Source of the DNA: Streptomyces coryli
GTDB taxonomy: Bacteria > Actinomycetota > Actinomycetes > Streptomycetales > Streptomycetaceae
Assembly (NCBI RefSeq): GCF_011044975.1
Contig: NZ_JAAKZV010000002.1
Coordinates: 79,453 to 143,452, forward strand
DNA length: 64,000 bases
Direction of reading: 5' to 3'
Shown: positions 8,438 through 63,908 of the stretch, one piece after another
Numbering within the stretch: the stretch's first letter is position 1
Layout: every line of letters begins with the position of its first letter
Notes under the pieces: model-generated
Told to the model about the DNA's origin: nothing
Seen by the model: the letters and a program-made list of their open reading frames with translations, nothing else
Databases searched by the model: none
Program-made: the position numbers and the translations under genes

Positions 8438-9444
8438 CGGACCGTCTCCTTGGGCTGGTTGGGGACGTCGGCCGGGCCGGTGAGGGCGAAGAACACGTCG
8501 TCGAGATCGGGGGTGTGGACGGTCAGTTCATCCGCTTCGATGCCGGCGGAGTCGAGCCGGTCGAGGATGGAGCGGAGCTCGCGCTGGCTGCCGTCGCTGG
8601 GGAGTTGGAGAGTCAGCGCCTCGTCGTCGCGGGTGACCTCGCGCAGGGTGTCGGCGGCCGACTGGTACGAGGCTGGGTCCGTGAAGCGGAGGCGGATATG
8701 ACCGCCGGGGATGAGCCGCTTGAGCTCCTCGGCGGTGCCTTCGGCGGCAATCCTGCCGTCGTTGAGGACGGCGATACGGTCGGCGAGCTCGTCGGCCTCC
8801 TCCAGGTACTGCGTGGTGAGGAAGACGGTCACGCCGTCGGAGACGAGGCCGCGGATGATGCCCCACATGTTGTGGCGGGACCGCGGGTCGAGACCGGTGG
8901 TCGGCTCGTCGAGGAAGATGATGCGCGGGTCGCCGACCAGCGTCATCGCGATGTCGAGGCGGCGCTTCATGCCGCCGGAGTAGGTGGCGGCGGGCTTCTT
9001 CGCTGCGTGGGTGAGATCGAAGCGCTCCAGGAGCTCGGCGGCGACCCGCCTTCCCTCGCTCTTGGACAGGTGGTGCAGGTCCGCCATGAGCAGCATGTTC
9101 TCCTCGCCGGTGATCAGGCCGTCGACGGCGGAGAACTGCCCGGTGACGCCGATCGCGGCCCGTACCCCGTCGGGGGCGGTGGCGACATCGTGACCCGCGA
9201 CCTGTGCCTGCCCGCCGTCGGCGGTGATGAGGGTGGAAAGGATCTTCACGGCGGTGGTCTTGCCGGCACCGTTCGGGCCGAGCAGCGCGAACACAGACCC
9301 CGCCGGGATGTGCAGATCGATGCCGTCGAGGACGAGCTTTTCGCCGTACGACTTGCGCAGCCCTACGGCGGATACGGCGGATACGGCGGTCGGCGACGGG
9401 CGATGGTCGCCCTGCCTGGACGTGCGCATGACAGAAGAAGGCAT
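8434..9444 (-). CDS. DrrA-like ABC exporter ATP-binding protein (copy 2)
   Basis: The 336-residue protein starts at an ATG at 9444 behind AAAGGAAG. It has Walker A GPNGAGKT, signature YSGGMKRRLDIA, Walker B IIFLDEPTTGLD and the DrrA tail ending VHTPDLDDVFFALTGPADVP. It is a close paralogue of the ATPase at 5635-6612; an N-terminal extension of about 15 residues is the main difference. A 150-bp gap without a gene separates it from the DUF1048 genes upstream, so it may be the end of the PadR operon or have its own promoter. Confidence 0.9.
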   Translation of the reverse strand: MPSSVMRTSRQGDHRPSPTAVSAVSAVGLRKSYGEKLVLDGIDLHIPAGSVFALLGPNGAGKTTAVKILSTLITADGGQAQVAGHDVATAPDGVRAAIGVTGQFSAVDGLITGEENMLLMADLHHLSKSEGRRVAAELLERFDLTHAAKKPAATYSGGMKRRLDIAMTLVGDPRIIFLDEPTTGLDPRSRHNMWGIIRGLVSDGVTVFLTTQYLEEADELADRIAVLNDGRIAAEGTAEELKRLIPGGHIRLRFTDPASYQSAADTLREVTRDDEALTLQLPSDGSQRELRSILDRLDSAGIEADELTVHTPDLDDVFFALTGPADVPNQPKETVR

Positions 9445-9594
9445 GGCGGCTTCCTTTCGGAGGCTGAAGAAGCAGAGGGGTGGAGGCTGTTCGGACCTCG
9501 GAGTGAGGGACGGTCCGTGATGACGCGTCAGTCGCGTGGTCCAGGGAATGGGTGTCAAGCGGCCCGCCGCGGAGCCTGTGAGGCGACCGGGGTG

Positions 9595-9921
9595 TTACTT
9601 CTCGGCCGTGCCGGACTCCTTGCCGATGGACTCCTGATAGGCGTCCGCGTAGGTGCGCGAGTCCTTGATCAGGTCGTCGCAGAATGCGGCGACGTCCGTG
9701 CCGGTGACCTCCAAGACCCCCTTGCCCGCGGCGACGCCCTCCTCGAAGAAGTCGACGATCCCGGGGAGCAGGGGCCCGTCGGGCAGGTCGACCGGCCCGA
9801 CCTTGAACAGATACTTCTGCATTTCCTTGTAAACGATCTGGTAGTCCGGCGGGAGCGCCTTGACTCGAGCCATGTGCGCCCGCCACTGCTTCTTGCCCTC
9901 GATGATGTCTTGGATGCTCAC
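9595..9921 (-). CDS. DUF1048 family protein (second of a pair)
   Basis: The 108-residue protein starts at a GTG at 9921 behind GGAGG and reads MSIQDIIEGKKQWRAHMARV, then KEMQKYLFKVGPVD, and later FCDDLIKDSRTYADAYQESI. These are the marks of the helical DUF1048 family, which is regularly encoded next to PadR regulators and ABC exporters and has no established biochemical role. It begins one base after the stop of its paralogue upstream, so it belongs to the same operon. Confidence 0.75.
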   Translation of the reverse strand: MSIQDIIEGKKQWRAHMARVKALPPDYQIVYKEMQKYLFKVGPVDLPDGPLLPGIVDFFEEGVAAGKGVLEVTGTDVAAFCDDLIKDSRTYADAYQESIGKESGTAEK

Positions 9922-9922
9922 G

Positions 9923-10279
9923 TCAGCCCTCCAGCCGGCTCAGTTTCTTTGCGACATTCCTGTTCAACTGTTCGCGCCACCGGTCGCGATAGGTTCGAGC
10001 CCCTTCTCCGCCGGCCAGCGCCGCGCAAAAGCCCGGGATGTCGTCGCCGAGCACATCCTGGGCGCTCTGCCCTTCCGCCGCTGTTTCCTCGAGCAGCCCC
10101 AGGGCGCCGTCAAGGATCGGCATCAGGTTGCGGCCGGTGAAGTCCCCATGGGGCAGGAGGAGAACCTTGATCTGTTCCCACGCCGCCCGGTGGTCGTCCG
10201 GCAGGGCTGCCGCCCGATCCTCGAACGCCTTGTATTCCCTGGTGAGATCGCTGCCTGTGACCTTCTCCCAGAAATTCAT
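9923..10279 (-). CDS. DUF1048 family protein (first of a pair)
   Basis: The start chosen is the ATG at 10279, which overlaps the PadR stop as ATGA; a longer frame from 10327 would lie inside PadR. The 118-residue product begins MNFWEKVTGSDLTREYKAFE and includes WEQIKVLLLPHGDFTGRNLM and CAALAGGEGARTYRDRWREQ, paralogous to the next gene. Tight coupling with PadR suggests the protein acts with, or is controlled by, that regulator. Confidence 0.75.
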   Translation of the reverse strand: MNFWEKVTGSDLTREYKAFEDRAAALPDDHRAAWEQIKVLLLPHGDFTGRNLMPILDGALGLLEETAAEGQSAQDVLGDDIPGFCAALAGGEGARTYRDRWREQLNRNVAKKLSRLEG

Positions 10280-10602
10280 CTCCCGCCCTCCTTGAGCTTG
10301 TCGATACGTGATGAGACGTACTGCCATTTCGTCCAGAACTTCGCGAGCTCCTCGCGCCCGGCGTCGTTGAGCGCGTAGAACTTGCGCGGCGGACCGACCC
10401 CGGATGGCCGCTTCGTCATCCGGACGAGCCCGTTGCGCTCCAGCCGCAGCAAGATGGTGTACACCGTCCCCTCATTGACCTCGGTGAAGCCGAGCTCGTT
10501 CAGCTGACGGGTGATGGCGTACCCGTAGGTCTCCTCGCGGCCGATGACCTCGAGCACACACCCCTCGAGCGTGCCTTTCAGCATCTCCGTAAGGCCGTCC
10601 AT
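10276..10602 (-). CDS. PadR family transcriptional regulator
   Basis: The 108-residue winged-helix protein starts MDGLTEMLKGTLEGCVLEVI. It continues with the recognition region YGYAITRQLNELGFTEVNEG, TVYTILLRLERNGLVRM and a basic wing PPRKFYALNDAGREELAKFW, all diagnostic of PadR. GGGAGGA lies just upstream of the ATG at 10602. It heads the DUF1048-DrrAB run and most likely represses it. The dyad over the promoter at 10628-10657 is the obvious operator, with release by an exporter substrate as the usual logic for such systems. Confidence 0.88.
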   Translation of the reverse strand: MDGLTEMLKGTLEGCVLEVIGREETYGYAITRQLNELGFTEVNEGTVYTILLRLERNGLVRMTKRPSGVGPPRKFYALNDAGREELAKFWTKWQYVSSRIDKLKEGGR

Positions 10603-25060: not shown

Positions 25061-25135
25061 CGACCTCGGAGCGATCGACCGGAGAACGACAGAAGGGCCC
25101 TCACAGGTGTTGACCTGCGAAGACCCTTCGGAATG

Positions 25136-25254
25136 TCGGGACGGCGGGATTTGAACCCACGACCCCTTGACCTCCAGCTCAGGTGCCCCTGAGCGGCGTG
25201 CTCCGGTCCTTCCTCGAGGTCGGCAACCAGCGTACTCAGCCGAGTAAAGGAGTC
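25136..25254 (-). repeat. tRNA-Pro 3' fragment (att-like site 1) with 28-bp arm
   Basis: On the minus strand this carries the 3' half of tRNA-Pro: the T arm GGTTCAAATCC and acceptor strand CGTCCCG, through to the anticodon region, with one or two mismatches to the intact gene at 63835-63908. There is no 5' half, so it cannot be a tRNA. Bases 25227-25254 are identical to 47347-47374 beside site 3. A hairpin follows on the minus-strand downstream side (about 25090-25134). The most economical reading is a residual attachment site. Confidence 0.75.
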
Positions 25255-34393: not shown

Positions 34394-34462
34394 TGGGCAA
34401 AGCCGCTGGTCACCGTGTCGGGACGGCGGGATTTGAACCGACGACCCTCAACCCCCAGCCGG
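34394..34462 (-). repeat. tRNA-Pro 3' fragment (att-like site 2)
   Basis: Bases 34394-34439 are identical over 46 bp to 63811-63856, which covers the 3' end of the intact tRNA-Pro plus its downstream terminator arm. Similarity continues with several mismatches to about 34462. The 5' half of the tRNA is absent. It directly abuts a response-regulator frame that lacks its N-terminus, so recombination here probably cut that gene. Confidence 0.75.
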
Positions 34463-38537: not shown

Positions 38538-38659
38538 CTCACAAGAGTTGCCGCTGCCACCTGGCCGTATCCCTCTCAAACGGTCCTCGTTGGTTCTCGT
38601 GGTGATGCCGCAATTTTGAAGGTGCCACCTTGACCGTTCAGGTGCGAGGAAGGTGTGCC

Positions 38660-39724
38660 GTGGCCGAGGCGAGACTGCAGGTCATCGCGGGCGGAGCCGT
38701 CCCGCAGGAGCCGTTGGTCACGGACCCGTGGCAGTTCCAGGCTGCGTGCGTCGACGCGTTCGTCGCCTCCTGGCGAGTTCGCGGCTTTAGTCCGGTGACC
38801 ATCGACAACGACATCGGGCTGCTGGAGCGGACGCTGAAGGCTCTGGGCCGGCCGGCGTGGGAGGTCACTCCGGAGGATGTCGACCGGGTGGTGGGTGACC
38901 TCGCGGTGCAGGGCCGCAAGACCTCGACCCGACGCGAGTATGTGCAGATCTTCAAAGGGTTCCATCGGTTTCTGCAGGCCCGCAAGGCTGCCGAGATCGA
39001 GGCTGCCTTCGGTGTCCGGCTCGTCTGCCCGATCGATGATTTCAATGCCTCCCGACACGTCGGCGACGACTCCCCGGCCCTGCTGCCGCCTCCGACGCCG
39101 GAGCGGGTGGAGGAGTTCTTCGCCTTTATGAAGCAGCGGATCGCGACCGCGAGGAAGTACGGACCCGCAGCGAGGGACTATGCGATGTTCCGGACGCTGT
39201 ATCACGCCGGGCTCCGCTCGGAGGAAGCCTCGCTGCTGGAGAAGCCCGACCTGCACTTTGTCCGCGGCCCGTTCGGCAAGCTCCACGTGCGTTTCGGCAA
39301 GGGCGCCCATACTTCCGGGCCCCGGCCGCGGTGGGTGCCCATGCTCGACGGGCTCGATCTGGTGCTGCGGTGGTTCCTGGACGATGTGCGGCCCAAGTTC
39401 CCTGACTCTCCCGTGTTGTTCGCCGACGAGTCCGGCGGCCCTCTGCATCGCGGGACTATCCGCAATCGGCTCCGCTATTTGATGGAACTCGAAGGCCAGC
39501 CAACGAACGAGCGGTTCAGCCCGCATGCCCTGCGGCGAGCGTGCGCGACCCACAACTATGAACGCGGCGTCGATCTCGTGGCGATCCAGCAGATGCTCGG
39601 TCACTGGACGGTCAGTTAGACCATGCGTTATGTCCGGCCCTCGGCGACCTTCATCGAAGACGCCTATCAGCGGGCGGTCGCCGGGACCCTGGCCGAGCTG
39701 AGCGGGAAGGACACCACGGCATGA
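38660..39724 (+). pseudogene. Tyrosine recombinase 1, amber stop just before the catalytic tyrosine
   Basis: GAGGAAGG precedes the GTG at 38660. The protein has a SAM-like N-domain (FVASWRVRGFSPVTIDNDIG) and a catalytic domain with RTLYHAGLRSEEASLL (first Arg) and HALRRACATHNYERGVDLVA (HxxR). Next comes MLGHWTVS, TAG at 39617-39619, then TMRYVRPSATFIEDAYQRAV in the same frame to 39724. The Y of TMRYV is the expected nucleophile, so the nonsense codon removes exactly the active tyrosine. The real stop overlaps the XRE start (ATGA). Confidence 0.72.
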
Positions 39725-42127: not shown

Positions 42128-42742
42128 GCTGAAGCTCTCGTTTGAGGCGATGGCGACGCTGTTCTTCTCCTCCCTCTCCGTCAGAACCTGGAACAACAGC
42201 TCGGCGCCGCGGCGGTCGAGTTCCATGTAGCCCAGTTCGTCGATGCAGAGCAGGTCGACGCGACCGTAGCGGGCGATGGTCTTGGTCAGCTGGCGGCCGT
42301 CGGCAGCCTCGACCAGCTCGTTGACGAGCTTGGCGGCGAGCACGTAGCGGACCTTGAAGCCGGCGATCGCCGCCTCGGTGCCCAGCGCGATCAGCAGGTG
42401 GGACTTGCCGGTGCCGGAGTCGCCGATCAGGCAGAGCGGCTACCCTTTGCGGATCCACTCGCAGGTGGCCAGAGCATGCACGATAGCCGGGGTGACGTGC
42501 GGGTTGGCCTCGAATCCGGCCGCCTTCAGGCGCCGTTCCGAACGACGCCGGTCGCGGTCTTCGCACTCGGCCATCAGCAACTCGACGAGGAAGCCGCGGT
42601 AGGTCATCTGCTCACGTTCGGCGGCATCGGCGGCCGCGGGAAACTGGGATCGGATGGTCGGCAGCCGCAGCACCCGGCAGGCGGCGTCGACGGCGGCGTC
42701 GGCGGCCTGCTCGGTCAGACCACGGGGTTGGGTGACGGTCAT
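42128..42742 (-). pseudogene. istB, N-terminal and central part, with amber codon
   Basis: The frame starts MTVTQPRGLTEQAADAAVDA and reaches HALATCEWIRKG, then TAG at 42440-42442. In frame beyond it come PLCLIGDSGTGKSHLLIALG (Walker A), VLAAKLVNELVEAADGRQLT and DLLCIDELGYMELDRRGAEL (Walker B), up to SVAIASNESFS at the insertion edge. A CAG-to-TAG change explains the stop. It is the AAA+ helper ATPase of IS21 transposition, inactive here. Confidence 0.78.
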
Positions 42743-43785
42743 GGCAGCTCTCCCTGGGTGGCGGGATGGTGGTGCTTAAGTAAGGCGTCGTAGGCGGCGA
42801 CCGAAGGTGGCGGGCGGGTGTCGACCGGCAGCGCGGTCAGCCGGCGCTGGGTGAGCGAGGTGACCTGTGGTGGGGCCGCCGGCAGGGTGGTGGCCCGGGT
42901 GAGGGCTGGCGCGGTGTCGCCCTGCGCGGCCTTGCGGTCCTCGACCGCGACGGTGTCCGCGGTCAGCGCGCCGGCCTGCAAAGCGGCCGCGATGCCGGCG
43001 ACCACATGATCGTGGGTCATGGTGCGGTGCAGCAGGAGCACGGTGATCAGCTCGCGGGTGCCGGTCGCGTCGCCGTGGGCCCGGCGGACCGCGGACCACC
43101 AGGCGTCGTGAACCGGAGTGAACTTCCCGACGGCGCGGGCTTGTTCCAGTGCGGTGGCGCCCGGTAGGGCACCGGGCTTGCGCACCAGTGCCTCCAGATA
43201 GTGGTCCAGTTCCAAGCGGGACTGGCCGCGGCGGGTGAGCCGCTCATGTCGGGCGACCTCTTTGAGCCCCTCGTAGATCACCAGCTCCGAGGCGTGCAGC
43301 AGCACCCGGACCGGACGGCCGATCAGCCGGACCGGCACTGAATAGTGGGCCTGCCGGACGGTGATCTGCCCGTATCGATCAACGCGGGGATTGAAGACCC
43401 GGCCGGTCTCAAAGGGTTCATCCGGCAGTGGCCGCAGCAGCGAGCGCTCCAGCGCGAAGGACTGCCCGACGGTGTGCGGGCGGCTCCCGATCCGCCGCTC
43501 CTCGTCCTGCTCATCCCATAAGTCGATCATGCTGTTCAGCTCGGACAGCGAGCCCACTTCCGGCACCGGGACGAGATGGTTGCGGCGGAAGCGGCCCACC
43601 TCGCCCTCCACTCCGCCCTTCTCGTGCGCGCCCTCCTTGCCGGGCTGGCAGTAGAAAGCCTCCAGGCCGTAGTGCGAGCGGAAGGCCACCCATCGCTCGG
43701 CCTCGCGGCGATCCCGGAAGCCCAGCACCCTCGAGACCGCCGAGCGCAGATTGTCGTAGCGGACCTTGCCGATCGGCACCCCTCT
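42739..43785 (-). pseudogene. istA transposase, 5'-truncated
   Basis: About 348 codons remain. PIGKVRYDNLRSAVSRVLGF holds the second catalytic Asp, GAHEKGGVEGEVGRFRRNHL the catalytic Glu of the DDE triad, and FNPRVDRYGQITVRQAHYSV the C-terminal beta domain. The helix-turn-helix and first Asp are lost; the break is near 43786, next to the Imm21-like gene. Its end overlaps the istB start. Confidence 0.78.
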
Positions 43786-43868: not shown

Positions 43869-44462
43869 GTGACGACGTTCTCCTCCACTGCGGCCGCCTC
43901 GGCCGAGCCTTCCCGCACCTGGGTCGAGTCCATGGGCGGCCCGCTGATCGCAGTGCCGGTTTCCGCGCTGAGCCAGTGGCATGGTTGCACCCAGTCGGGG
44001 ATGGTCGTCGGCAGCGATGACGATCTGGACGACTACGACCGCGCGTGCGAGGTGGAGGGTCTGGCCGGCGTGATCGCCGTCGGCGCGGATGGTGCCCAGG
44101 GGCTTGTCCTGGCGGACGAGCCGGCCAGCAGCTTCTATCTGCCGGAGCACCGGGCCTTCGTTCGCTGGCTGGGCGCCAACAGCGAGGACGACCTGCTCGC
44201 CGCGGCCCGGGCGGTGCTCGCCGATTCCACCGCCATGTGGGAGGAGTGCGGCATTTGGCAGACAGATGGCCCAGCGGTTCTCATGGACTCCGTGACCGCA
44301 GGAGCCGAGGTCAGCGTCGGGTACCCGAACGGCGCAGGCATGCCGGAGCAGGCCCCCGTCGCCCTGCCGCCCGGTAGCTGGATGGTCCGCGCCGTCCATG
44401 CCTCACCCATCGAGGACACCTCGGTGGGCGTGATCCAACTTTTGCCTCAGCCATCGAGCTGA
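43869..44462 (+). CDS. Imm21-like immunity protein
   Basis: The GTG at 43869 starts a 197-residue acidic protein: WVESMGGPLIAVPVSALSQW, GCTQSGMVVGSDDDLDDYDR, ACEVEGLAGVIAVGADGAQG, WEECGIWQTDGPAVLMDSVT and ASPIEDTSVGVIQLLP. I recall this pattern as the Imm21 family of polymorphic-toxin immunity proteins. No cognate toxin or secretion gene lies nearby, so it is an orphan. It directly follows the truncated istA. Confidence 0.65.
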   Translation: MTTFSSTAAASAEPSRTWVESMGGPLIAVPVSALSQWHGCTQSGMVVGSDDDLDDYDRACEVEGLAGVIAVGADGAQGLVLADEPASSFYLPEHRAFVRWLGANSEDDLLAAARAVLADSTAMWEECGIWQTDGPAVLMDSVTAGAEVSVGYPNGAGMPEQAPVALPPGSWMVRAVHASPIEDTSVGVIQLLPQPSS

Positions 44463-47226: not shown

Positions 47227-47253
47227 GACCTGCAACTCTGGACATCCGTCCGA

Positions 47254-47374
47254 GTCGGGACGGCGGGATTTGAACCCACGACCCCTTGACCCCCAGCATT
47301 CAAGTGGCTGAGCGGCGTACTACGGCCCATTCCTCAAGGTCGGACACCAGCGTACTCAGCCGAGTAAAGGAGTC
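47254..47374 (-). repeat. tRNA-Pro 3' fragment (att-like site 3) with 28-bp arm
   Basis: Bases 47254-47296 match the intact tRNA-Pro region perfectly over 43 bp, from the anticodon loop to the 3' end. Downstream, 47308-47374 resembles 25190-25254 with about 85 percent identity by eye, including 28 identical bases (47347-47374). It probably marks the far end of the most recently acquired island, whose integrase sits beside the intact tRNA. Confidence 0.8.
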
Positions 47375-51797: not shown

Positions 51798-54700
51798 TCA
51801 GTGCTGTTTCGTTTGGCGCCAGATGTTCTGATGAGCTTGGTAGATCTCGTGCAGAACACCGGATGGTCTTTCGGGCCAGGTGGTTCTCATGGCCCGCTCT
51901 CCCCAGCAGAAAATAACGATCGCACGGCCGGCCGCATACCGTCGCAGGAGGTCGGTGCGTAGATACAGCATCTGGCCCTTGTATCCGGAAGGGGTTGCGA
52001 AGGACCGCGCGGCCAGTGCGCCGCAGGGTTCGGATTGGTCAAAGCCTGCCGGAAGGGCACGCAGGTCGAAGGCCTGTGAGAATAGTCGGCTGGGGACGTA
52101 GGCGGTCGCCTGGTTCTGGCTGCTGTGATGGGATTCCCAGGTGAAGTGATGGGCCAGCCGCTCGAAGCGGAGGTCGGGTCTGTCGTAGCGCAGGGTGCTG
52201 CTGTACAGCGCTTCTGCTGTCATTTCCAGTTCCGGCTCGGGTGAAGCGAATCGGGTGTGCCATGGGATCTCACCGGCAAAGAGGTAGTACTCGGCGGGCA
52301 GGTCGATCATGTCTCGCCCCGGGTGGGGCAAGGCGTCGAACGCATCCAGGACTCCGGTCAGGTTCTCCTGGTCGACGAGGACGGTGTTGAACAGGCCGAA
52401 GGTGTCCCGTCCGGTGATCACGTCCTCGGTGTCGATCTCTGCGTGCACGAGCAGCCACGGGCCTTCGTCCCCGTCAAGGGTTCCCGGTGCGAGGAAGCCG
52501 TCCGGCACGTTGACGACTCCGTGGCGCAGCCATTCGAGGTCGTCAGCTGGTGTCCGCGGCGTCCACGGGCCGAGCGGGAGCGCGGCAGGCCGCGGGGGCT
52601 GCGGGAAGGTCGGGTCGATGTCTACTTCGAGGTGCTCGGGTGGCTGGCCGCGGTCGGCCAAAATGCCCGCCACTGTGTGGAAGCCGATCCAGCCGTACTT
52701 CTTGCCATACCGGTCGGTGCGGCCATCTGACGTGCGGCGTTGCCGGGAGGTTGTTGAGGTGATTTGGCCTTCCACCTCGTCGAACAGGTCCGGGCGCCAG
52801 CCCAAGGCGTGGACAACGCCGAGGACGAGGGCGGTAGCCTCTTGGTGCCCGGGGTGGGAGTCGTCGTAGTTCCGTCGGTCCGGGAACAGCCGCCCGAGGG
52901 TGTAATTGCCGAAGTCCATACGCATCGTGTGGCGAACCTCCTCTCGGCGTGGATCGCCGTCGGGCAGCGGACTCGTCATCGGTGCGACGGTGAAGTTCAA
53001 GGGCAGTTCGGCTTCGGAGGGGACGGTAGCGGGATAGTGGTGGCGGACGAGGTCGAAGGTTGAGGAGACGTAATAACGGGTCAGCGCGTGGAAGGTGGGG
53101 TGGGTGGCGTCGGTTCCGGTGAACGCGTTCAGCAGCCCTGCCAGGTAGGTGGGCAGGGCGGCCTCCAGTACCGGGTTGTGCAGCTGATTAGCCGTCGCGA
53201 CGCCGTAGGAGGCAGCGACCATGCGTTCTCCGACGTAGGCGTCGTTGACGGTGATCGCTTCCAAGGTCAGGGTGAACAGTCCACTCATGTCGTACCGGCC
53301 ATACCAGTACAGGGCCGCCGTGGCGGCGTCACGAAGGTCGCGGTCGGTACTCGTCAGCGTCCACATCAACCATCGCGCGCGCAACCGGTCGGCCTCTGTG
53401 CGGTGTGGATGTTCGCGCCAGCGTGTGGCCAATGCGGTCGCGTCGGCGAGGAAGGAGCGGCGGTGCGTGCGCAGCCACTCACTCCATCGCAGATCGCGGT
53501 CGGCGACCGGCCGACTCCGCAAGATCCGGTGGAGGAAGTACGCATTGAGGGGGTGCCCCGAGGCTGCGCGGGTGCTGTAGAGCCGATGGAAGATGTCATC
53601 TCGTCCGCGGAGATCGTCGCTGTGGTTGGCGAGCGCCTCCACCGTGGCGGAGTCGAGGTGGGCTGCCTCGAGGCCGGCGGCGTGCAGAAGAGCGGGTAGG
53701 CGGAGGGGTTCGGCGATGGCCTGCCACAGTTGCCCGGCACCGGCTCGGGGCATGACGCCTGCCAAGGCCTGGAAGATGTCGGTGGCGAGCGGGTGCCGCT
53801 CGTCTGACCTTCCGGTGAAGCGTGCCAAGGTGGCGTCCTCGCTCAGAGGCTGGGCGATGCCCCTGCCATGAGCATGCACGAGGCTGGTGGCGATGACATG
53901 TCCGGCCATCAGATCATAGACGAACGACCAGGTCGCTCCGCCAATGCCGTCGGGGTGGCGAAGGAGAACCTCTTCGTGTTCGAGCGCGGGGAGAAGGCTC
54001 TCCTGCCAGCGGCGGTGGGTGTCCAGGCACAGCTGCTTCGCCTGAGCGTCGGGAAGATCGCGTACCTGATCGTCCCACAGGGCATTTCCGAGAGCATCGA
54101 GTGCCTGATTGACGTCGTTCGGGTGGATGGACGGGATGAGTTCGTAGACGCGGCGGGCGGCGGAGGTGAGGTATTCACTGAAGATGCCGGTCAGGGAGCT
54201 AGGCAGACCTGCGGCGCTGACGGGGTGACTGCGGTCGCGGTTGGCCACGGTGCAGAAGATCTTCAGTGTCAGCGGGTGGCCGAGGAGTTCGCGCGGCAGG
54301 TCGGCGCCGCCCGGTTCGATCTTGTAGTGGGAGAAGTAGCGGGCGATGGCCTCGTCGAGGTCTTCATCGAATCCGTCGAGCTCGAGGATGTCGTTCACAT
54401 CGGCGGGGATCGTGTCGTTGAGAAACGCCTCGCGGACCGTGCATACCACGAGTACGGACGGGTACCGTCTGAGGGTCACCTGCAAACTGCGCAGCAACGG
54501 CGGCCACAGAGTGGGGGTTTCGGCCTCGTTCAGGCCGTCGATGACGATAGGCAGGCGGCATCCGGCGCGCTGTGCGGCCGCGTCGACTGCGGCAAGAAGC
54601 TCCTCGAAGGAGACCAGGGGTTTACCCGCTGCCGTGACTTGGCCAGCGAGATGGTCGAGGGTCTGACGGGCGCTCAGGCGCCTGCCGTAGAGCAGGACAC

Positions 54701-55772
54701 CGGCGGGGCGTGCCGATGTGGGCGCGGTGAGCGTCGCGGACAATTGTGTCTTGCCGAATCCGGCATCACCGGTGACCACCGCGAGCCGGGTCGACAGGTG
54801 ACCGGTGACGTGGAGGGCGAGGGTGACGGCGTCGCGGATGTGCGCGATCAGATTGGTCAGCGGCAAGGCGGCTGCGTGCCGCAGGGCACGCAGCCGCCGG
54901 AGCACGGCTGGCTGCGTGCCAGGAACCTGAGGCACGGTGCGGTCTGTGGCGCCCAGCAGTGGGGAAGGCTGGCTGTTGCTGATCTGCTGGTGCGCCTCTT
55001 GCAGAAGTTCGACGACGTCGCGTCCCGCGGCGACGATCGCCGCGGTCTGCTCAGCCAGTGGGGCCGGTAGCGCCGTGGCCGCGTCGCCGAGTGCTGCTTC
55101 GAAGCGGGCGATGTTGCGGTTGGTGTCGCTCAGGTCATCCCACGCATCGGGTTCGGCGAGCATCCGCCGAAGCCGGTGCTCGGCAGCCGACGCCTGATGC
55201 ACCTCGGGGATCCAACGTTCGCCGGCTTCGGCGGCGGCCCGCGCATGCTGTTCGGCAAGACGCTCCGGGGTCAGGACGAGTGAGCCGAAGTAGGCCTCCC
55301 GCAGCATCGCAGCATCGCCGACTAGTAGATGGCCAAGATCGACCTCCGTGGACAGATGCAGCTTCATCCGGGTGGACAGGCCGTAGAACCATGTCTGGTC
55401 GCCGGCGGTGAGGGGGTGTCGGGTCCACAGCACGAAGTCGGTGATACCCGGAAAGTGCTTCTCGGTTTTCTCTAGGGAGTCCTCAACGTCGTTGCGGCGG
55501 CTGGTACCGATGGCGCGGCCTGACTGGATGTCCCACCATTTGGTCTGCCATCCGAAGCAGCGGCCGGGTTCGCCGAGCGGGCATCCGGGCTGGTGGATGT
55601 CGAGGTGAAACTCGACTCCAGGCTGCTGGGCCTGGGTGATGAAGCGGCCGTAGCGGGCGTATGCGTGGGCGACAACGCCCCGGCACAACAGCTCGAAGTT
55701 GTCCCGGGGGCTGCCGGGCAACGCGGTGAACTTGGCCCAATCCAGCGAAGTCATCGGCTCGTTCACCCTCAC
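51798..55772 (-). CDS. PD-(D/E)xK nuclease-like domain fused to a STAND/NACHT-type NTPase, 1324 aa
   Basis: The start is a GTG at 55772 overlapping the previous stop, or ATG at 55754 (MTSLDW). Residues 10-150 resemble restriction-type nucleases: DNFELLCRGVVAHAYARYGR, VEFHLDIHQPG with Asp58, and CFGWQTKWWDI with QTK at 76-78, then DFVLWTRHPLTAGDQTW. A helical linker follows. The NTPase core has LAVVTGDAGFGKTQLSATL (Walker A about 335-344) and LPIVIDGLNEAETPTLWPPL (Walker B about 409-416), then LVVCTVREAFLNDTI and LDGFDEDLDEAIARYFSHY, a NACHT/STAND arrangement. The remaining about 800 residues are a long sensor-like region without named repeats. The size and layout resemble antiviral STAND (Avs) proteins, in which ligand sensing triggers nuclease activity. 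That role is inferred. Confidence 0.8.
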   Translation of the reverse strand: MRVNEPMTSLDWAKFTALPGSPRDNFELLCRGVVAHAYARYGRFITQAQQPGVEFHLDIHQPGCPLGEPGRCFGWQTKWWDIQSGRAIGTSRRNDVEDSLEKTEKHFPGITDFVLWTRHPLTAGDQTWFYGLSTRMKLHLSTEVDLGHLLVGDAAMLREAYFGSLVLTPERLAEQHARAAAEAGERWIPEVHQASAAEHRLRRMLAEPDAWDDLSDTNRNIARFEAALGDAATALPAPLAEQTAAIVAAGRDVVELLQEAHQQISNSQPSPLLGATDRTVPQVPGTQPAVLRRLRALRHAAALPLTNLIAHIRDAVTLALHVTGHLSTRLAVVTGDAGFGKTQLSATLTAPTSARPAGVLLYGRRLSARQTLDHLAGQVTAAGKPLVSFEELLAAVDAAAQRAGCRLPIVIDGLNEAETPTLWPPLLRSLQVTLRRYPSVLVVCTVREAFLNDTIPADVNDILELDGFDEDLDEAIARYFSHYKIEPGGADLPRELLGHPLTLKIFCTVANRDRSHPVSAAGLPSSLTGIFSEYLTSAARRVYELIPSIHPNDVNQALDALGNALWDDQVRDLPDAQAKQLCLDTHRRWQESLLPALEHEEVLLRHPDGIGGATWSFVYDLMAGHVIATSLVHAHGRGIAQPLSEDATLARFTGRSDERHPLATDIFQALAGVMPRAGAGQLWQAIAEPLRLPALLHAAGLEAAHLDSATVEALANHSDDLRGRDDIFHRLYSTRAASGHPLNAYFLHRILRSRPVADRDLRWSEWLRTHRRSFLADATALATRWREHPHRTEADRLRARWLMWTLTSTDRDLRDAATAALYWYGRYDMSGLFTLTLEAITVNDAYVGERMVAASYGVATANQLHNPVLEAALPTYLAGLLNAFTGTDATHPTFHALTRYYVSSTFDLVRHHYPATVPSEAELPLNFTVAPMTSPLPDGDPRREEVRHTMRMDFGNYTLGRLFPDRRNYDDSHPGHQEATALVLGVVHALGWRPDLFDEVEGQITSTTSRQRRTSDGRTDRYGKKYGWIGFHTVAGILADRGQPPEHLEVDIDPTFPQPPRPAALPLGPWTPRTPADDLEWLRHGVVNVPDGFLAPGTLDGDEGPWLLVHAEIDTEDVITGRDTFGLFNTVLVDQENLTGVLDAFDALPHPGRDMIDLPAEYYLFAGEIPWHTRFASPEPELEMTAEALYSSTLRYDRPDLRFERLAHHFTWESHHSSQNQATAYVPSRLFSQAFDLRALPAGFDQSEPCGALAARSFATPSGYKGQMLYLRTDLLRRYAAGRAIVIFCWGERAMRTTWPERPSGVLHEIYQAHQNIWRQTKQH

Positions 55773-56179
55773 TCGCCCCGGCCGTGCCCAGTGCCGGGGT
55801 AGTTGTGTGCGGAGTACACCTCGATGCGGGCCCCCTTGTGGAGGAGGACTTTCAGCAGCGCCTGGACATCGATCTCATCGGTGGTCACCACGATGGAGTT
55901 GCCGTCGCGGCGCACGGTGAGGTCGTACAGGAACTGCTCGAGTTCGCGTGACCCGACGCTGTAGATGTTGAGGTCAGTGAGCAGTTTCAGGACCTCGTCG
56001 CTGTAGCGGTCCTTCGGCTCGCCGACGGTGAGGCGGCCGGCCTCTTCCTCCGCTTGCAATACCGTCGTGATCTCTTTGATGAGGGCGTGGGCTCGTTCGG
56101 TTGTAGCGGCATCCTTGAACCGGCCGATCATGACGAGGTTCGTGGAGTGCTCGGTGCCGAATCCGTACCAGATCTTCAT
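55769..56179 (-). CDS. Small protein resembling DUF6375 (136 aa)
   Basis: The protein reads MKIWYGFGTEHSTNLVMIGR, FKDAATTERAHALIKEITTV, LKLLTDLNIYSVGSRELEQF and EIDVQALLKVLLHKGARIEV. I recall similar proteins annotated DUF6375. It overlaps the radical SAM gene upstream (ATGA) and the nuclease-NTPase gene downstream (GTGA), so the three are translated together. A small, conserved, coupled protein between an enzyme and an NTPase could be a substrate of the radical SAM enzyme, a sensor or an inhibitor. Confidence 0.75.
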   Translation of the reverse strand: MKIWYGFGTEHSTNLVMIGRFKDAATTERAHALIKEITTVLQAEEEAGRLTVGEPKDRYSDEVLKLLTDLNIYSVGSRELEQFLYDLTVRRDGNSIVVTTDEIDVQALLKVLLHKGARIEVYSAHNYPGTGHGRGE

Positions 56180-57156
56180 GCGACACCTTTCTGTTGCAGG
56201 CGGCTGAGCGCGGCGATGATGCCGCGGTCGTCAACCGGTTCACCCGCCGCGTGGTAGGAGGTCCGCCGGAGCGTCCCCGCGGCGTCGATGTGTGCATACG
56301 CGCGCAGTTCCATCTCGCCCGGCAGCGGCTGGGCAGTCAGCAATGAACCGGTGTCGCCCTCACCGATGGTGAGTGCCACAGGCCCGTGGTAACTGGCGAT
56401 CCACTGGTGCAGAGCGGCGGTGACGTGCGGTCTACTGCTGCCAGGGTGCCCACGCCCGGGTCGCTCGGCAAGCAGCAGCAGTTCCGCTGCGCCAGTGGAG
56501 GCAGCCAGGTCGGCGACCCTATCCAGGTCGGCCAGCGTGGAGTCGTTGACGACACAGTTGATCCCGAACCGGAAGGCCTCCCCGATTTGCGCGAGTCGCT
56601 GCACGAGAACGGCGAAGGATCGGTTGCGCAGCTTCTCGTAGGTGGTGCCGACGCCGTCAACGCTGACGCGGACGAAGTTGACCGTTCCGGCCAGTGCTTC
56701 GATCAACTGGGGTGTGAAACGGTGCGCATGCGTCGTCATGGTCACCGCGAGGTCGGTGCGCTCAGCGACGTGACGACAAACCTGCGGAAGGCGGCGGTAC
56801 AGGGTGGGTTCTCCGCCTCCGAAACCGACACCGAGGCAACCCTCCGCGTCCAGCTCATCGATCCAGGCGCACAGACGAGCGGCGTCCAGCACAGCGGCGG
56901 TTTTGGGCGCGTAGCAGAACGGGCACGCAAGGTCGCAGGCGTTGGTCAGGGCAATCGATACTTGCCGTGGGGCTCGAGCCCACTGCTCCTCGGGGACATC
57001 GGCCTCGTCGAAGAGTACGTTCAGGCCGGTGCGGCGGTCGAAGAGGTGCATCCCATCGGGGCCGACACGACGTTTCACCAGCTGTCTCGCATCACTTGCA
57101 CATTCTCCACCCACGTTTGGGCTCAAAGCATGCCAGGGCATGCCAGGCTCAGTCAC
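56176..57156 (-). CDS. Radical SAM enzyme
   Basis: The 326-residue protein has the cluster motif CDLACPFC (C74, C78, C81), GVGFGGGEPTLYRRLP (SAM-binding GGGEP, about 113-117), TDLAVTMTTHAHRFTPQLIE, NFVRVSVDGVGTTYEKLRN and FGINCVVNDSTLADLDRVAD. There is no SPASM-type cysteine cluster at the C-terminus. The start at 57156 is a GTG; VKRRVGPDGMHLFDRR from a GTG at 57078 looks like a natural N-terminus and may be the true one. It heads the three-gene operon. Members act on nucleotides, peptides or RNA, so both peptide modification and small-molecule synthesis (viperin-like) are possible. Confidence 0.85.
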   Translation of the reverse strand: MTEPGMPWHALSPNVGGECASDARQLVKRRVGPDGMHLFDRRTGLNVLFDEADVPEEQWARAPRQVSIALTNACDLACPFCYAPKTAAVLDAARLCAWIDELDAEGCLGVGFGGGEPTLYRRLPQVCRHVAERTDLAVTMTTHAHRFTPQLIEALAGTVNFVRVSVDGVGTTYEKLRNRSFAVLVQRLAQIGEAFRFGINCVVNDSTLADLDRVADLAASTGAAELLLLAERPGRGHPGSSRPHVTAALHQWIASYHGPVALTIGEGDTGSLLTAQPLPGEMELRAYAHIDAAGTLRRTSYHAAGEPVDDRGIIAALSRLQQKGVA

Positions 57157-59043: not shown

Positions 59044-61215
59044 CTAGGGCTGCTGGCGTGAGCGCAGCAGTGTCAGTTCGGTGCGGGCTTGCCGGGTGGT
59101 GGGGTCGTCAGGGCCGTATCGACGGTCGCGTATGGCAAGGACCTGCGCGAACTCGCCTTGCGCCTCTGCCCGTTGGCCGTTCTCCCACAGGCTCGTGGCG
59201 CGCTGCCACTTGGCGTCGAGGACGACGGGGTGTTCGCGGCCGTTGGTGCGCACGAGATCTGGCAGGCAGGCGTCCAGCGCCTCCAGCGCTGCGGTGTGGT
59301 CGCCAGTGCGGGCCAGAAAATCGGCGATGCAGCAGCGTGTCTCAAGGGTGTTGATGTGGTCCGGTCCCAAGTGGGCTTCCTCCAACTCGAGGACCTCACG
59401 TGCTTGGCGTACGGCTTCGTCTAGATCCCCCATCGCCGCGACGATGCATGCGATGACGCGACGGGTGTCGAGTGTGTTCATCGCAGTAGGACCCAGGTGC
59501 ACCTCCCGATCTGCCAGCAACGCACGGAACTGGTCGAGGGCGTCGGCTAGGTCGCCTCGGCGGCGGGCGCAGGAGGCGAGGTTATGCCGGATGACGTGCA
59601 GTCCCTCGTCCCCAGCGGGAAGTAGCGCCTCGTACTCGGCGAGGAGGGCCCGGAAAGCCGCTTCTGCGTCGCCGGGTTGCCCCATGAGCATGGTGTAGAA
59701 GGCGATGTTGTGACGAAGCGATCGGTTATACTCCAAAGGATCACCACCGGCATCATCCCCCTGACGCTCAAGCTCGCGTGACAAGAGGGCGATGGCTTCC
59801 GCGTAGCGATGCCGGTCGGCCAGAGCGGAAGCGCGGAGGAAGACGCTCTCGAGGAGCCCGGCGTCGAATGCTTGGTGGAACGCCCTGCGCTGATGCCATT
59901 GGGCCTTCCCGGCAATCCGGGGTATTTGATTGGTACTGGCGTGCTGGAAGACGATGTCCCATGTCTCGGCAGGGATAGTGGCTTGGTGGGGCTGGTCGAC
60001 GAGGTAGTCGAAGGCGATGAACCGTGCGCTGTGCGCTCCCGTCCCCGACGGTAGTAGCAGGCTGCTGGCGCCATGTACCGGCTGCAGTGCCCAGTGCCAA
60101 GCTTCCTCCAGCGACTCCGGCCGAAGCGCGTGTCCACCCCGTGCCGCCAGATAGTGATGGTGAAGCTCCTCCAGCAGCTCCCGGGAAGCTGGCTCGTCCA
60201 GGCCTATGCGGCGACAGTCCACGGCCGCGGCCACCAGGGCCGCCGCACGTGGATGGGTACCGGCTTCCCACGCCGCCTGCCAGTCCTCGAGAAGTTCCGG
60301 GCCGGCGGCGAGCATCTCGGCCAGTCCGAAGGCATGGGTGTGGCGTAGCGCCCGGGCGATGCGGGGATCTTCTGCGAATGAGGACGCGGCTTCCAGCTCC
60401 TGAGGCGACCAGATCCTGTCGAGACTGCAGATGTGTGCCCGCTGCAGCACATCGCGACTCGCCCGCCATGCCGTCCGCTCCTGCTCGTCACCAGCAGGTT
60501 CGCGGCGGGCCGTGAAGCGCTGGTATTGGGAGGAGCGGATCGTGGCGACCCGTATCACCTCCGGACGGGCCGTCAGCTCGCTCAGCAGCTGTGGGCTGAG
60601 GCCGTCCAGGCCTAGAAAGCACTCGAGATCATCCAGCCACAGCACTGCCGGCTCCGTGAGACGGGATACGTACTCAACAAGCGGAATTACGGCGCTACGA
60701 TCCACGGGCACCGCCAGACGATGCGAAGGAAGAACAGCCCGCATCGCTTCAAAAGCAGATCGCGACTTGCCTGCCGTGGACTCTCCTACGATCAGCACGA
60801 ACACCTCGTGAGCCACAGCCGTCCGCAACGCATCGTCGATCTCGCGGGGCACGTAAGCGGGAAGGCGGCCGCCATTCGGTGACGCCTGATCCCCTTGGTC
60901 GCTGCGCGCCGGATGCACACCCAGCCGGATAGCGTCGCTCACGTCTGCCACCCGCGGCAGAAGACTACGTGCACCGGATACGGAGACTGCTTTGGCCACC
61001 TGCCCGCGCTGGATTGCCGAGCGCTCGAGCCATGCCTGCGTCCGGCTGCCGACAAACACTGTGCATGCGCTGACCGCACCCCCAACCGGCACAGCCCATA
61101 CCCGGGGCAACCACACGGCCGCGATCAGTGCACTACCCACTCCGAGCGCACCGCACAGCGCCAGCGTCCCCCACGCAGCTGCGTGCCGCCACCAACCCTG
61201 GAACAACGACCCCAC
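59044..61215 (-). CDS. Membrane-anchored STAND NTPase with TPR repeats, 723 aa
   Basis: The protein has two N-terminal transmembrane helices (about 14-35 and 40-56), then a P-loop NTPase core with VFVLIVGESTAGKSRSAFEA (Walker A about 144-151), EPAVLWLDDLECFLGLDGLS (Walker B about 191-198) and VIRVATIRSSQYQRFTARRE. From about residue 460 TPR units follow (YNRSLRHNIAFYTMLMGQPG, GLHVIRHNLASCARRRGDLA, TLDTRRVIACIVAAMGDLDE, TLETRCCIADFLARTGDHTA). NTPase-TPR proteins are signal-sensing switches used in regulation and defence. The start is a GTG at 61215. Confidence 0.78.
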   Translation of the reverse strand: MGSLFQGWWRHAAAWGTLALCGALGVGSALIAAVWLPRVWAVPVGGAVSACTVFVGSRTQAWLERSAIQRGQVAKAVSVSGARSLLPRVADVSDAIRLGVHPARSDQGDQASPNGGRLPAYVPREIDDALRTAVAHEVFVLIVGESTAGKSRSAFEAMRAVLPSHRLAVPVDRSAVIPLVEYVSRLTEPAVLWLDDLECFLGLDGLSPQLLSELTARPEVIRVATIRSSQYQRFTARREPAGDEQERTAWRASRDVLQRAHICSLDRIWSPQELEAASSFAEDPRIARALRHTHAFGLAEMLAAGPELLEDWQAAWEAGTHPRAAALVAAAVDCRRIGLDEPASRELLEELHHHYLAARGGHALRPESLEEAWHWALQPVHGASSLLLPSGTGAHSARFIAFDYLVDQPHQATIPAETWDIVFQHASTNQIPRIAGKAQWHQRRAFHQAFDAGLLESVFLRASALADRHRYAEAIALLSRELERQGDDAGGDPLEYNRSLRHNIAFYTMLMGQPGDAEAAFRALLAEYEALLPAGDEGLHVIRHNLASCARRRGDLADALDQFRALLADREVHLGPTAMNTLDTRRVIACIVAAMGDLDEAVRQAREVLELEEAHLGPDHINTLETRCCIADFLARTGDHTAALEALDACLPDLVRTNGREHPVVLDAKWQRATSLWENGQRAEAQGEFAQVLAIRDRRYGPDDPTTRQARTELTLLRSRQQP

Positions 61216-62132: not shown

Positions 62133-62508
62133 GTATAGCTCCCCCCGGCTCGTTCCCGCAGCTCCAGGATGAGTTCGGCACGGGAGCGGGGCGGGATGTC
62201 GTACCCGCGGCTGGTCCACCGGTCCTGGGACTGCCGCAGGCTTGGGTGACACCACCGTGTCTGGCCAGGTTCCGACTCGTCCGGTTCGCAGCTCGCGCGC
62301 ATTACCAAGCGCTCCTGACCGCGCCGACATGATCCGATGCCACTTGAATGCCTATGTGGGTGTCGGTGCAGGTCGACTAGTTTCCCGAGTGTGATGTGGT
62401 CGCGGTGTGGTCGCATCCCCTACGCCATGATCCGCCAGCTGTTGCGCCGGGGCGCCGCCCTGCCACGGTGGACGCATCCAGATGCACCACCGAGTGGAGG
62501 TGACTGTT

Positions 62509-63735
62509 GTGATCGCTCTTCCTGAGCGTGGCCGCGTCTACCGGCGCTGCGGCTGCCGCACCACGGGCGGCAGGCAGCTCGGTGCCCGCTGCCCGAAACT
62601 CAACGAACCCGGTCGGCACGGAAGCTGGGCCTACGCCGTGGATCTGCCGTCTGCGGACGGCCGCCGCCGTACCCGGCGGCGAAGCGGCTTTCCCAGCCGG
62701 ACTCGAGCCGTGGAGATGCTCGCCCGGCTGCTGGAGGCCGAACGCACCGGTATCGACGATGACCCTCGCCTGCGCGTCGACGCCTACTTGCTGGAGTGGC
62801 TGCATCTGAAGGAGCAGCAGCTCAAGCCCACCACCTACCGCCACTACCGGCAGTATGTGCACCGTGACCTGATCCCCGCCTTCGGCCGGCTCCGCCTGAC
62901 ACAGCTGCGCCCGCGGCACATCTCCGCCTTCACCGACGCCCAGTTGGCGGCCGGTCGGGGCCGCACCACCGTCTACCGGTGCACCGCCGCCCTTTCCAGC
63001 GCCCTCGGCCACGCAGTACGTATCCGGCTCCTCGCCCACAACCCCGCCGCGCACTCGCTCATGCCCCGGCCGGTGCCGCCGGAGCGGCTGTGCTGGAGCC
63101 CCGAGCAGTCCGCGGCGTTCCTGGTCCACAATCACGCTCACTATGGCGACCGGTTCACCGATCTGTTCGAGGTGCTGCTGGGCACCGGGCTGCGGCGCGG
63201 CGAGGCGCTCGGCCTGCACTGGGCGGACGTGTACCTGGCCGAGCGGGTGCTGTTCGTGCGCTGGACTCTCACCGCCATCGACAACAACGCCCTGCACCTC
63301 GGTCCGCCCAAGACCAAGGCCAGCCGGAACTGGGTGGCCTTGGCTCCGCGGGTGGCGCGCGCCCTGCACCGACAGGCCGCTCTGCAGATGTCGGCGCTCC
63401 CGCCCGGAGCCCCGCTCGAGGGACTGGTGTTCGCTGCCTCCGACGGTGCTCCGCTGCGGCCGCAGTATGTGCTGGAGCAGCTGCGGCGCCGTGCCGAAGA
63501 GGCCGGCGTGCCTCGGATCGGGGTGCACGACCTGCGGCACACCGCCGCCACCATCATGCTCAGCTCCGGAGTGCCGCTCGCGGTGGTGTCCAAGACGCTG
63601 CGGCACTCCACCCTGGCCACCACGGTGAATATCTACGGGCACCTGCTCAAGCACGCCGCCCGGGACGCCGTCACCACACTCGGTCACGCCCTGGACCAAG
63701 CCGGACCGAACCCCGGAGGCCTGCGCGCCGCCTGA
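62509..63735 (+). CDS. int: Tyrosine-type site-specific integrase
   Basis: GGAGGTGA precedes the GTG at 62509, so that start is preferred over the ATG at 62482. The 408-residue protein has an arm-type N-terminal region (RRCGCRTTGGRQLGARCP), a core-binding domain (DAYLLEWLHLKEQQLKPTTY, RLRLTQLRPRHISAFTDAQL) and a catalytic domain. The catalytic residues are the Arg in LLGTGLRRGEALGLHWAD, Lys in LGPPKTKASRNWVALAP, HxxR in IGVHDLRHTAATIMLSSGVP and Tyr in TVNIYGHLLKHAARD. All catalytic residues are present. It ends 100 bp from the tRNA-Pro, which is surely its attB. No xis gene is visible. Confidence 0.9.
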   Translation: MIALPERGRVYRRCGCRTTGGRQLGARCPKLNEPGRHGSWAYAVDLPSADGRRRTRRRSGFPSRTRAVEMLARLLEAERTGIDDDPRLRVDAYLLEWLHLKEQQLKPTTYRHYRQYVHRDLIPAFGRLRLTQLRPRHISAFTDAQLAAGRGRTTVYRCTAALSSALGHAVRIRLLAHNPAAHSLMPRPVPPERLCWSPEQSAAFLVHNHAHYGDRFTDLFEVLLGTGLRRGEALGLHWADVYLAERVLFVRWTLTAIDNNALHLGPPKTKASRNWVALAPRVARALHRQAALQMSALPPGAPLEGLVFAASDGAPLRPQYVLEQLRRRAEEAGVPRIGVHDLRHTAATIMLSSGVPLAVVSKTLRHSTLATTVNIYGHLLKHAARDAVTTLGHALDQAGPNPGGLRAA

Positions 63736-63824: not shown

Positions 63825-63834
63825 GGTCACCGTG

Positions 63835-63908
<74 letters not shown>

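Follow-up and report, generated by a model that had tools for sequence, protein, structure and literature searches.

What could a radical S-adenosylmethionine (SAM) enzyme and a small protein of the family DUF6375 do beside an Avs2-like STAND nucleoside triphosphatase (NTPase)? This question is raised by three genes of Streptomyces coryli, which are located in a stretch of 64,000 nucleotides (nt) (assembly GCF_011044975.1, contig NZ_JAAKZV010000002.1, positions 79,453 to 143,452 of the forward strand). The whole stretch is called the window, and coordinates are window positions unless a locus label is given. A first-pass annotation of this DNA had reported three overlapping same-strand genes, and this arrangement was confirmed. 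The stop codon of the radical SAM gene and the start codon of DUF6375 share the sequence ATGA, and the stop codon of DUF6375 and the start codon of the NTPase gene share GTGA. In their order on the minus strand the genes are:

57156 to 56176, minus strand: radical SAM enzyme, 326 amino acids as called, with CxxxCxxC at residues 74-81, GGGEP at 113-117 and an N-terminal beta meander at 28-49
56179 to 55769, minus strand: DUF6375 protein, 136 amino acids, with a near-invariant N-terminal tail, a domain at residues 14-124, plus S123/H125
55772 to 51798, minus strand: Avs2-like nuclease-STAND NTPase, 1324 amino acids, with E54 and Q76-x-K78, Walker A at 338-342, Walker B at 412-416 and RYGKKYxW at 1021-1028

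The answer that we favour, at slightly better than an even chance, is an anti-phage system resembling antiviral STAND NTPases (AVAST) and nucleotide-binding leucine-rich repeat (NLR) proteins with an added maturation module, in which the radical SAM enzyme would modify the tail of DUF6375, which would govern the Avs2-like NTPase.

Co-occurrence of the three genes had been set beforehand as the test on which a composite system could fail, and it did not fail. A genome scan based on a DUF6375 alignment returned 79 pattern matches, and 73 of these proved to be relatives; these 73 genome loci, five plasmid loci and the window make up the 79 rows of the comparison (L038 duplicates L003). The radical SAM gene adjoins DUF6375 in 78 of the 79 rows, the exception being L051, and the NTPase gene follows downstream on the same strand in 75, the exceptions being L004, L051, L064 and L075. 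Several of the relatives' NTPases are broken or cut by contig ends. The overlap of radical SAM gene and DUF6375 was exactly 4 nt in 58/76 relatives compared. Because the genome scan was seeded from DUF6375, separate searches were run from the radical SAM enzyme and from the NTPase. DUF6375 is present in 12 of 392 Streptomyces genomes, and the radical SAM protein was found in the same 12 (E≤1e-15 with five candidates per genome scored; weakest E 2.1e-85). The C-terminal 500 amino acids of the NTPase (three candidates per genome scored) matched these 12 and one more genome, G760, the latter with 117-residue fragments only. The three genes stand side by side in all 12; DUF6375 lies in two frames in G774, and the NTPase is split in G548. 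Fisher's test on the counts 12/0/0/380 gives 4e-23, a value that is not corrected for kinship.

The plasmids gave a similar picture. The same 16 of 72,556 plasmid records were matched by the radical SAM protein (E≤1e-12) and by DUF6375 (E≤1e-3). In fifteen of the 16 a match to the NTPase covers 78-99% of its length, two of these being interrupted by a transposase, and the sixteenth has an insertion sequence at the place of the NTPase. In the other 40 of the 55 NTPase-matching records at most 61% of the NTPase is covered among the matches listed (15 rows are not listed), and three distant Avs2-like plasmid genes among these 40 have no annotated radical SAM or DUF6375 neighbor. The cassette family is rare: phylum-wide sampling was above cut-off in one of 396 genomes, which was the centre genome itself. 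Its rows carry 18 phylum labels, with 28 changes on the tree versus a minimum of 17 (nine rows are unlabelled). In the NTPase tree, calculated with FastTree and accompanied by long-branch warnings, a starred branch separates the 67 cassette NTPases from three Avs2-like rows. The pairwise distances of the three families correlate with r 0.76-0.86, compared to a permutation maximum of 0.19. The trio is a true conserved unit, and its arrangement lies far beyond chance.

A few loci deviate from this arrangement. In L051, a Phycisphaerae metagenome-assembled genome, DUF6375 follows with a 4-nt overlap on an open reading frame (ORF) that looks by eye like PglZ of bacteriophage exclusion (BREX) systems and replaces the radical SAM gene (8340-10561); this may point to a novel setting of the gene, to a relic or to an artefact of assembly. 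L004 keeps the pair of radical SAM gene and DUF6375 beside an insertion sequence. The pair also occurs without the NTPase, with intact tails, in L064 (9078-16454) and L075 (9066-10396), and about 3 kb beyond the pair L064 (Ensifer) contains what appears by eye to be a ubiquitin-like/E1/JAB-type operon. G760 carries two equal-scoring 117-residue NTPase fragments in one genome (L109, L110), and a plasmid of Streptomyces dangxiongensis has a 149-residue NTPase piece close to its end (match H36); these are relics of the NTPase, which perhaps lie in terminal repeats. A second Streptomyces cassette clade (L081-L088 and L092), missed by the pattern scan, has tails starting with M-R-I-W or M-K-I-W and in most cases a Ser/Asp-rich C-terminal extension of DUF6375.

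The NTPase had been described in the first-pass annotation as a relative of STAND/Avs proteins with a restriction-nuclease-like N-terminus. The proposed kinship holds: the PADLOC Avs2 model matches residues 8-948 with E 8e-97, and the solved Avs2 structure 9o4e matches residues 331-860 with E 2.2e-19. The score for the NCBI Avs2 equivalog was 199.9 bits at a cut-off of 1000, and the Pfam match to NACHT was weak and below cut-off (E 0.0015). In an alignment of 68 rows including one duplicate, G338, G340, K341 and T342 of the Walker A motif G338-x-G-K-T342 as well as D412 and E416 of Walker B are present in 68/68 rows. At the N-terminus a nuclease-like motif E54...Q76-x-K78 is present, with E54 in 68/68 and Q76 in 67/68 rows, but at position 78 the 68 rows divide into 53 with K and 15 with R. 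From F26-E27, G52-x-E54 and Q76-x-K78 we take the N-terminus to be Mrr-like; its similarity to the N-terminus of Avs4 was weak (E 0.84). Mean entropy was lowest in the nuclease and STAND parts (1.62 and 1.61 bits), higher in the sensor parts (2.07 and 2.17 bits) and among the highest in the last 214 residues (2.61 bits), with region borders set by us. The putative sensor contains the motif RYGKKYxW (1021-1028), of which GKKYxWI recurs in Avs2. According to passages in PMC12931631 and PMC12724215, Avs1-3 recognise the large terminase subunit and Avs4 the portal protein, and ATP-dependent oligomerisation activates the effector.

The assignment of the 136-residue protein to DUF6375 was borne out by Pfam (PF19902, E 6.5e-44, 150.2 bits at a gathering score of 27.5), and its most conserved part is the N-terminal tail. 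The tail consensus is M-K/R-x-W-x-x-x-G-x-E-H-S, with near-invariant M1, K/R2, W4, G8, E10, H11 and S12; S123 and H125 are also conserved. For this comparison 86 sequences with an effective number of 53 were used, leaving out L092 (frameshift), L051 and the duplicate L038. W4, G8, E10, H11 and S12 are each present in 86/86 sequences, and mean entropy was 0.75 bits for residues 1-13 versus 2.00 bits for residues 14-124; the conservation of M1 results partly from the choice of start. Since the genome scan used patterns in residues 1-9 or 10-19, tail conservation was possibly inflated, and the 71 scan rows were split according to the pattern matched (43 residues 10-19 only, 8 residues 1-9 only, 20 both). 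W4 and G8 were present in 43/43 rows selected by the 10-19 pattern alone, and E10, H11 and S12 in 8/8 rows selected by the 1-9 pattern alone. All five residues occurred in 15/15 rows obtained without tail patterns, namely the window, plasmids found by tblastn and Streptomyces found by the Pfam model. In the 43 rows the entropy of residues 1-9 was 0.88 bits versus 1.90 for residues 14-124. Tail conservation thus stands after correction for sequence selection. The constraint acts on the protein and not on the DNA, as synonymous codons vary at invariant tail residues: G8 is encoded by all four codons for glycine and S12 by four of those for serine.

An AlphaFold2 model of DUF6375 built from 73 aligned sequences reached a mean predicted local distance difference test (pLDDT) score of 89.8. 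Residues 1-10 are predicted to be disordered (mean pLDDT 43, compared to block means of 88-98 for residues 11-130), although the first 13 residues are the most conserved part of the protein. The predicted fold of residues 14-124, strand-helix-(two helices)-strand-strand-helix-strand, is read as ferredoxin-like. A conserved segment that is predicted to be flexible and lies at a fixed distance from the N-terminus would be expected of a modification site or of a docking peptide; the tail may be modified by the radical SAM enzyme or may serve for docking into a partner. The model had no match at E≤1e-3 in the PDB, where weak ferredoxin-like designs ranked first. A Foldseek search against viral structures also gave no match at E≤1e-3, and a decoy of a phage protein found no support. 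A search of 50,697 phage records detected no DUF6375 (E≤1e-3), and none was found in viral contigs, where the single-protein scan used can reach only close relatives and gave five pattern matches that failed confirmation.

The radical SAM assignment, made from the CxxxCxxC motif, was likewise correct (Pfam Radical_SAM PF04055, E 2.8e-15). The cluster cysteines C74, C78 and C81 and the GGGEP motif are invariant in 75/75 aligned proteins, and C127, a candidate hydrogen donor, is conserved in 72/75 only. Residues 1-26 of the called protein are not conserved (mean entropy 2.45 bits) and many relatives' ORFs comprise only about 300 residues, so the true start may be the GTG at 57078 (V27). Among the 25 listed of 54 NCBIfam families matched, none was matched at its curated cut-off. 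The predicted structure (66 aligned sequences, pLDDT 90.5) gave SkfB and SuiB as its six best PDB matches (among them 6efn, E 2.9e-15, and 5v1s, E 3.1e-15). Viperin-like structures followed close behind and query-normalised TM-scores were alike (0.49-0.70) among the 50 matches listed, so that the fold match to maturases is not specific. The best solved relative by profile was also SkfB (E 1.4e-16), with viperin-like structures at E about 1e-10. The sequence is compatible alike with cross-linking, epimerisation, radical transfer and other chemistries.

The position of the viperin-like structures leads to another explanation. The radical SAM enzyme could make a small-molecule signal, a viperin- or MoaA-like nucleotide, which DUF6375 would bind by E10/H11/S12/S123/H125 and thereby gate the NTPase. 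The enzyme is compact and has no auxiliary-cluster cysteines, like viperin, and a binding site could be made up of the conserved polar residues close to the two ends of DUF6375. The parallel with antiviral viperins had also been drawn in the first-pass annotation, but it was not supported by the curated models. The score was 46.6 of 180 bits for the NCBIfam viperin model and 44.9 of 284 bits for MoaA, far below the cut-offs. The match to PADLOC pVip (E 4.4e-17) is of doubtful specificity, as 2/123 control-region proteins match the same viperin models about as well (best 7.4e-17). We therefore rejected an identity as viperin. A ligand role alone would also not account for a tail that is invariant, apparently disordered and located at a constant distance from the start codon, and we regard the small-molecule signal as fairly unlikely.

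Several observations weigh against our reading of DUF6375 as a substrate of the radical SAM enzyme in a defence system. The enzyme has no conserved SPASM/twitch cysteines, the commonest cysteine column after C127 being occupied in 41/75 sequences, and no Pfam PqqD-like peptide-binding domain was recognised up to E 0.1, a divergent one being possible. SuiB-like cross-link chemistry is for these reasons not implied. An identity as SPASM maturase was rejected, as the auxiliary-cluster cysteines are lacking, and a SuiB-type Lys-Trp cross-link in DUF6375 is not claimed, residue 2 being K in 71/77 and R in 6/77 sequences. In the NTPase, the catalytic-looking lysine 78 is replaced in the 15 rows mentioned above, and the stretch with the shared Avs2 sensor motif reached no significance by itself (E 2.7). 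Once the NTPase was accounted for, the distances of radical SAM enzyme and DUF6375 showed a partial correlation of only 0.14. Moreover, enrichment of defence genes near the cassette could not be demonstrated in a small matched sample of 15 cassette loci and 15 control regions from the same genomes. Scanning 132 of 134 neighbor ORFs (two overlapping the cassette were dropped) and 123 control ORFs, we found 72 PADLOC models matched by cassette neighbors and 40 by control-region ORFs.

The invariant tail could equally be an unmodified docking peptide, a distinction that a single-chain model cannot make. DUF6375 would then be a structural partner or inhibitor that docks by its tail into the NTPase, and the radical SAM enzyme would act on the NTPase or serve as a scaffold or redox sensor. 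A conserved disordered segment has the look of a docking peptide modelled without its partner, and the partial distance correlation with the NTPase was 0.55 for DUF6375 and 0.64 for the radical SAM enzyme. These partial correlations are weak evidence either way, because the alignment for the NTPase has far more positions and less noise. Against docking alone, the invariant cluster cysteines and GGGEP argue that catalysis matters, and the pair of radical SAM enzyme and DUF6375 is retained in L064 and L075, which have no NTPase beside it, and in L004 beside the insertion sequence. Docking of an unmodified DUF6375 appears unlikely to us. The conserved tail, predicted to be disordered, is circumstantial evidence for its modification, which is also favoured by the pair kept without the NTPase in L064 and L075 and by the fold match to SkfB and SuiB.

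A modified tail would fit into the following scheme. The radical SAM enzyme would recognise DUF6375 and modify its N-terminal tail by 5'-deoxyadenosyl-radical chemistry. The matured DUF6375 would bind the NTPase as a regulatory subunit and set or license its activation. The C-terminal sensor of the NTPase would meet a conserved phage protein, terminase-like by analogy with Avs2, the STAND domain would bind ATP and oligomerise, and the N-terminal nuclease would cut DNA, so that the infection is stopped or the cell is killed. We infer maturation of DUF6375 and its control of the NTPase from precedents for Avs proteins, AVAST accessory genes and radical SAM enzymes in conflict systems. Passages in PMC12799240 describe that AVAST systems can acquire activity-gating accessory genes in the form of nuclease-protease pairs, and in PMC7159879 parts of the text propose for another conflict system that a radical SAM enzyme modifies a presumed peptide effector. 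It is a tentative proposal, which we hold at somewhat below an even chance, that the trio represents a new NLR-like class in which a tail modification installed by the radical SAM enzyme licenses, or acts as a safety pin for, an Avs2-like receptor nuclease. The boldest version of this proposal is that the tail, through its state of modification, would itself report infection, e.g. via loss of SAM or of the iron-sulfur cluster.

A related scheme with guard logic would suit a SAM- and cluster-dependent enzyme adjoining an NLR-like switch. Healthy cells would keep the tail modified, and SAM drain or iron-sulfur damage on infection would yield unmodified DUF6375 that triggers the NTPase. The PADLOC Avs2 match, however, reaches residue 948 and thus into the half that has a phage-sensing role according to parts of PMC12724215, which suggests direct sensing, and we consider guard logic most improbable. 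The persistence of a radical SAM enzyme and a small protein beside a STAND receptor over 18 phylum labels points to a control layer of radical chemistry in an NLR-like system. Most descriptions of STAND/Avs receptors present them as sensors in which binding of a phage protein activates an effector. The DUF6375 family gains a testable role and named residues.

How does the trio relate to known systems? The NTPase and the following region are homologous to Avs2. Avs2 is a single-gene system, whereas in 12/12 Streptomyces genomes having more than a fragment of its C-terminus the trio NTPase is accompanied by both other genes, and trio NTPases are separated in the tree from the three distant Avs2-like plasmid genes without annotated partners. 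As with SkfB and SuiB, the best structural matches, an enzyme gene adjoins one for a small protein in which a flexible segment is conserved; the trio enzyme differs by the lack of SPASM/twitch cysteines and of a Pfam PqqD-like domain, and the presumed substrate is a folded protein of 136 amino acids instead of a short precursor peptide. With prokaryotic viperins (pVip) the enzyme shares a radical SAM core with CxxxCxxC and the compact size, but it stays below the curated cut-off and is linked to an NTPase and DUF6375. In FxSxx-COOH systems a radical SAM enzyme is likewise found with a presumed substrate of small size and with conflict proteins that depend on NTP; no FxSxx model was matched by the trio among the matches listed (25 of 54 for the radical SAM protein). 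Such a pairing is also found in the FtsH ternary vWA-MoxR systems as far as described in passages of PMC7159879, but no trio protein is vWA, MoxR or FtsH by Pfam. The sections of PMC7159879 and PMC10853773 around the term 'radical SAM' do not describe the trio. The open-licence literature of PubMed Central (PMC), a scope that leaves preprints and most subscription papers outside, contains no mention of DUF6375 and, among the papers listed and judged by their titles and the openings of their abstracts, no description of a trio of radical SAM and STAND/Avs2 type, in line with the first-pass annotation, which knew of no such system. We regard the trio as a variant of the AVAST-like systems.

The genomic context of the trio is formed by two direct repeats of 47 nt, 98% identical and 16,580 nt apart, and an integrase:

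47250 to 47296, plus strand: att-like direct repeat of 47 nt on the left; its counterpart at the tRNA-Pro end is 98% identical
62482 to 63735, plus strand: integrase adjoining tRNA-Pro, likely the mobility gene of the element, outside the trio
63830 to 63876, plus strand: att-like direct repeat on the right, which overlaps tRNA-Pro (63834-63908, minus strand) at the 3' end of the latter

Further copies at 25134-25177 and 34394-34447 bring the repeats of the tRNA-Pro 3'-end sequence to four in total, which suggests that three integrative elements are stacked at a single tRNA gene; another integrase is located at 38630-39619. The trio is likely carried on a mobile element with its left edge at the 47250 repeat. 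None of the plasmid records searched contains most of window 40000-64000. In five close relatives (L006-L009 and L117) the trio is about 79-85% identical to that of the window, and of seven other window genes only one recurs, in part, in one of the five, in flanks compared up to about 10 kb (shorter in L006 and L008). As to the island context, which the first-pass annotation had proposed to check, the trio lies on a likely mobile element, and defence enrichment could not be demonstrated. The PADLOC search proposed there gave Avs2 for the NTPase, the pVip match of doubtful specificity and no convincing model for DUF6375 (best E 0.036).

These data also bear on a possible regulatory or biosynthetic role of the trio as an operon unrelated to defence, to which the missing PADLOC model for DUF6375 and the defence neighbors not shown to be enriched would be suited. 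The Avs2 homology of the NTPase, the patchy spread over 18 phylum labels, the plasmid-borne copies, the position beside an integrase between repeats at tRNA-Pro and the flanking genes that, apart from part of one, do not recur in the close relatives argue against it, and we consider such an operon very unlikely.

Two neighboring genes were also inspected. The minus-strand gene at 59044-61215 encodes a tetratricopeptide repeat (TPR) protein with, by eye, an N-terminal hydrophobic segment and a P-loop-like motif; it reached 90 of 300 bits with the NCBIfam model FxSxx_TPR and had no PADLOC match. A larger operon including this STAND-TPR gene was rejected, as the gene was not found in the compared flanks of the five close relatives. 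On the plus strand, 43869-44462 encodes an Imm21 immunity protein (Pfam E 8.8e-57) beside IS21-like fragments at 42440-43779.

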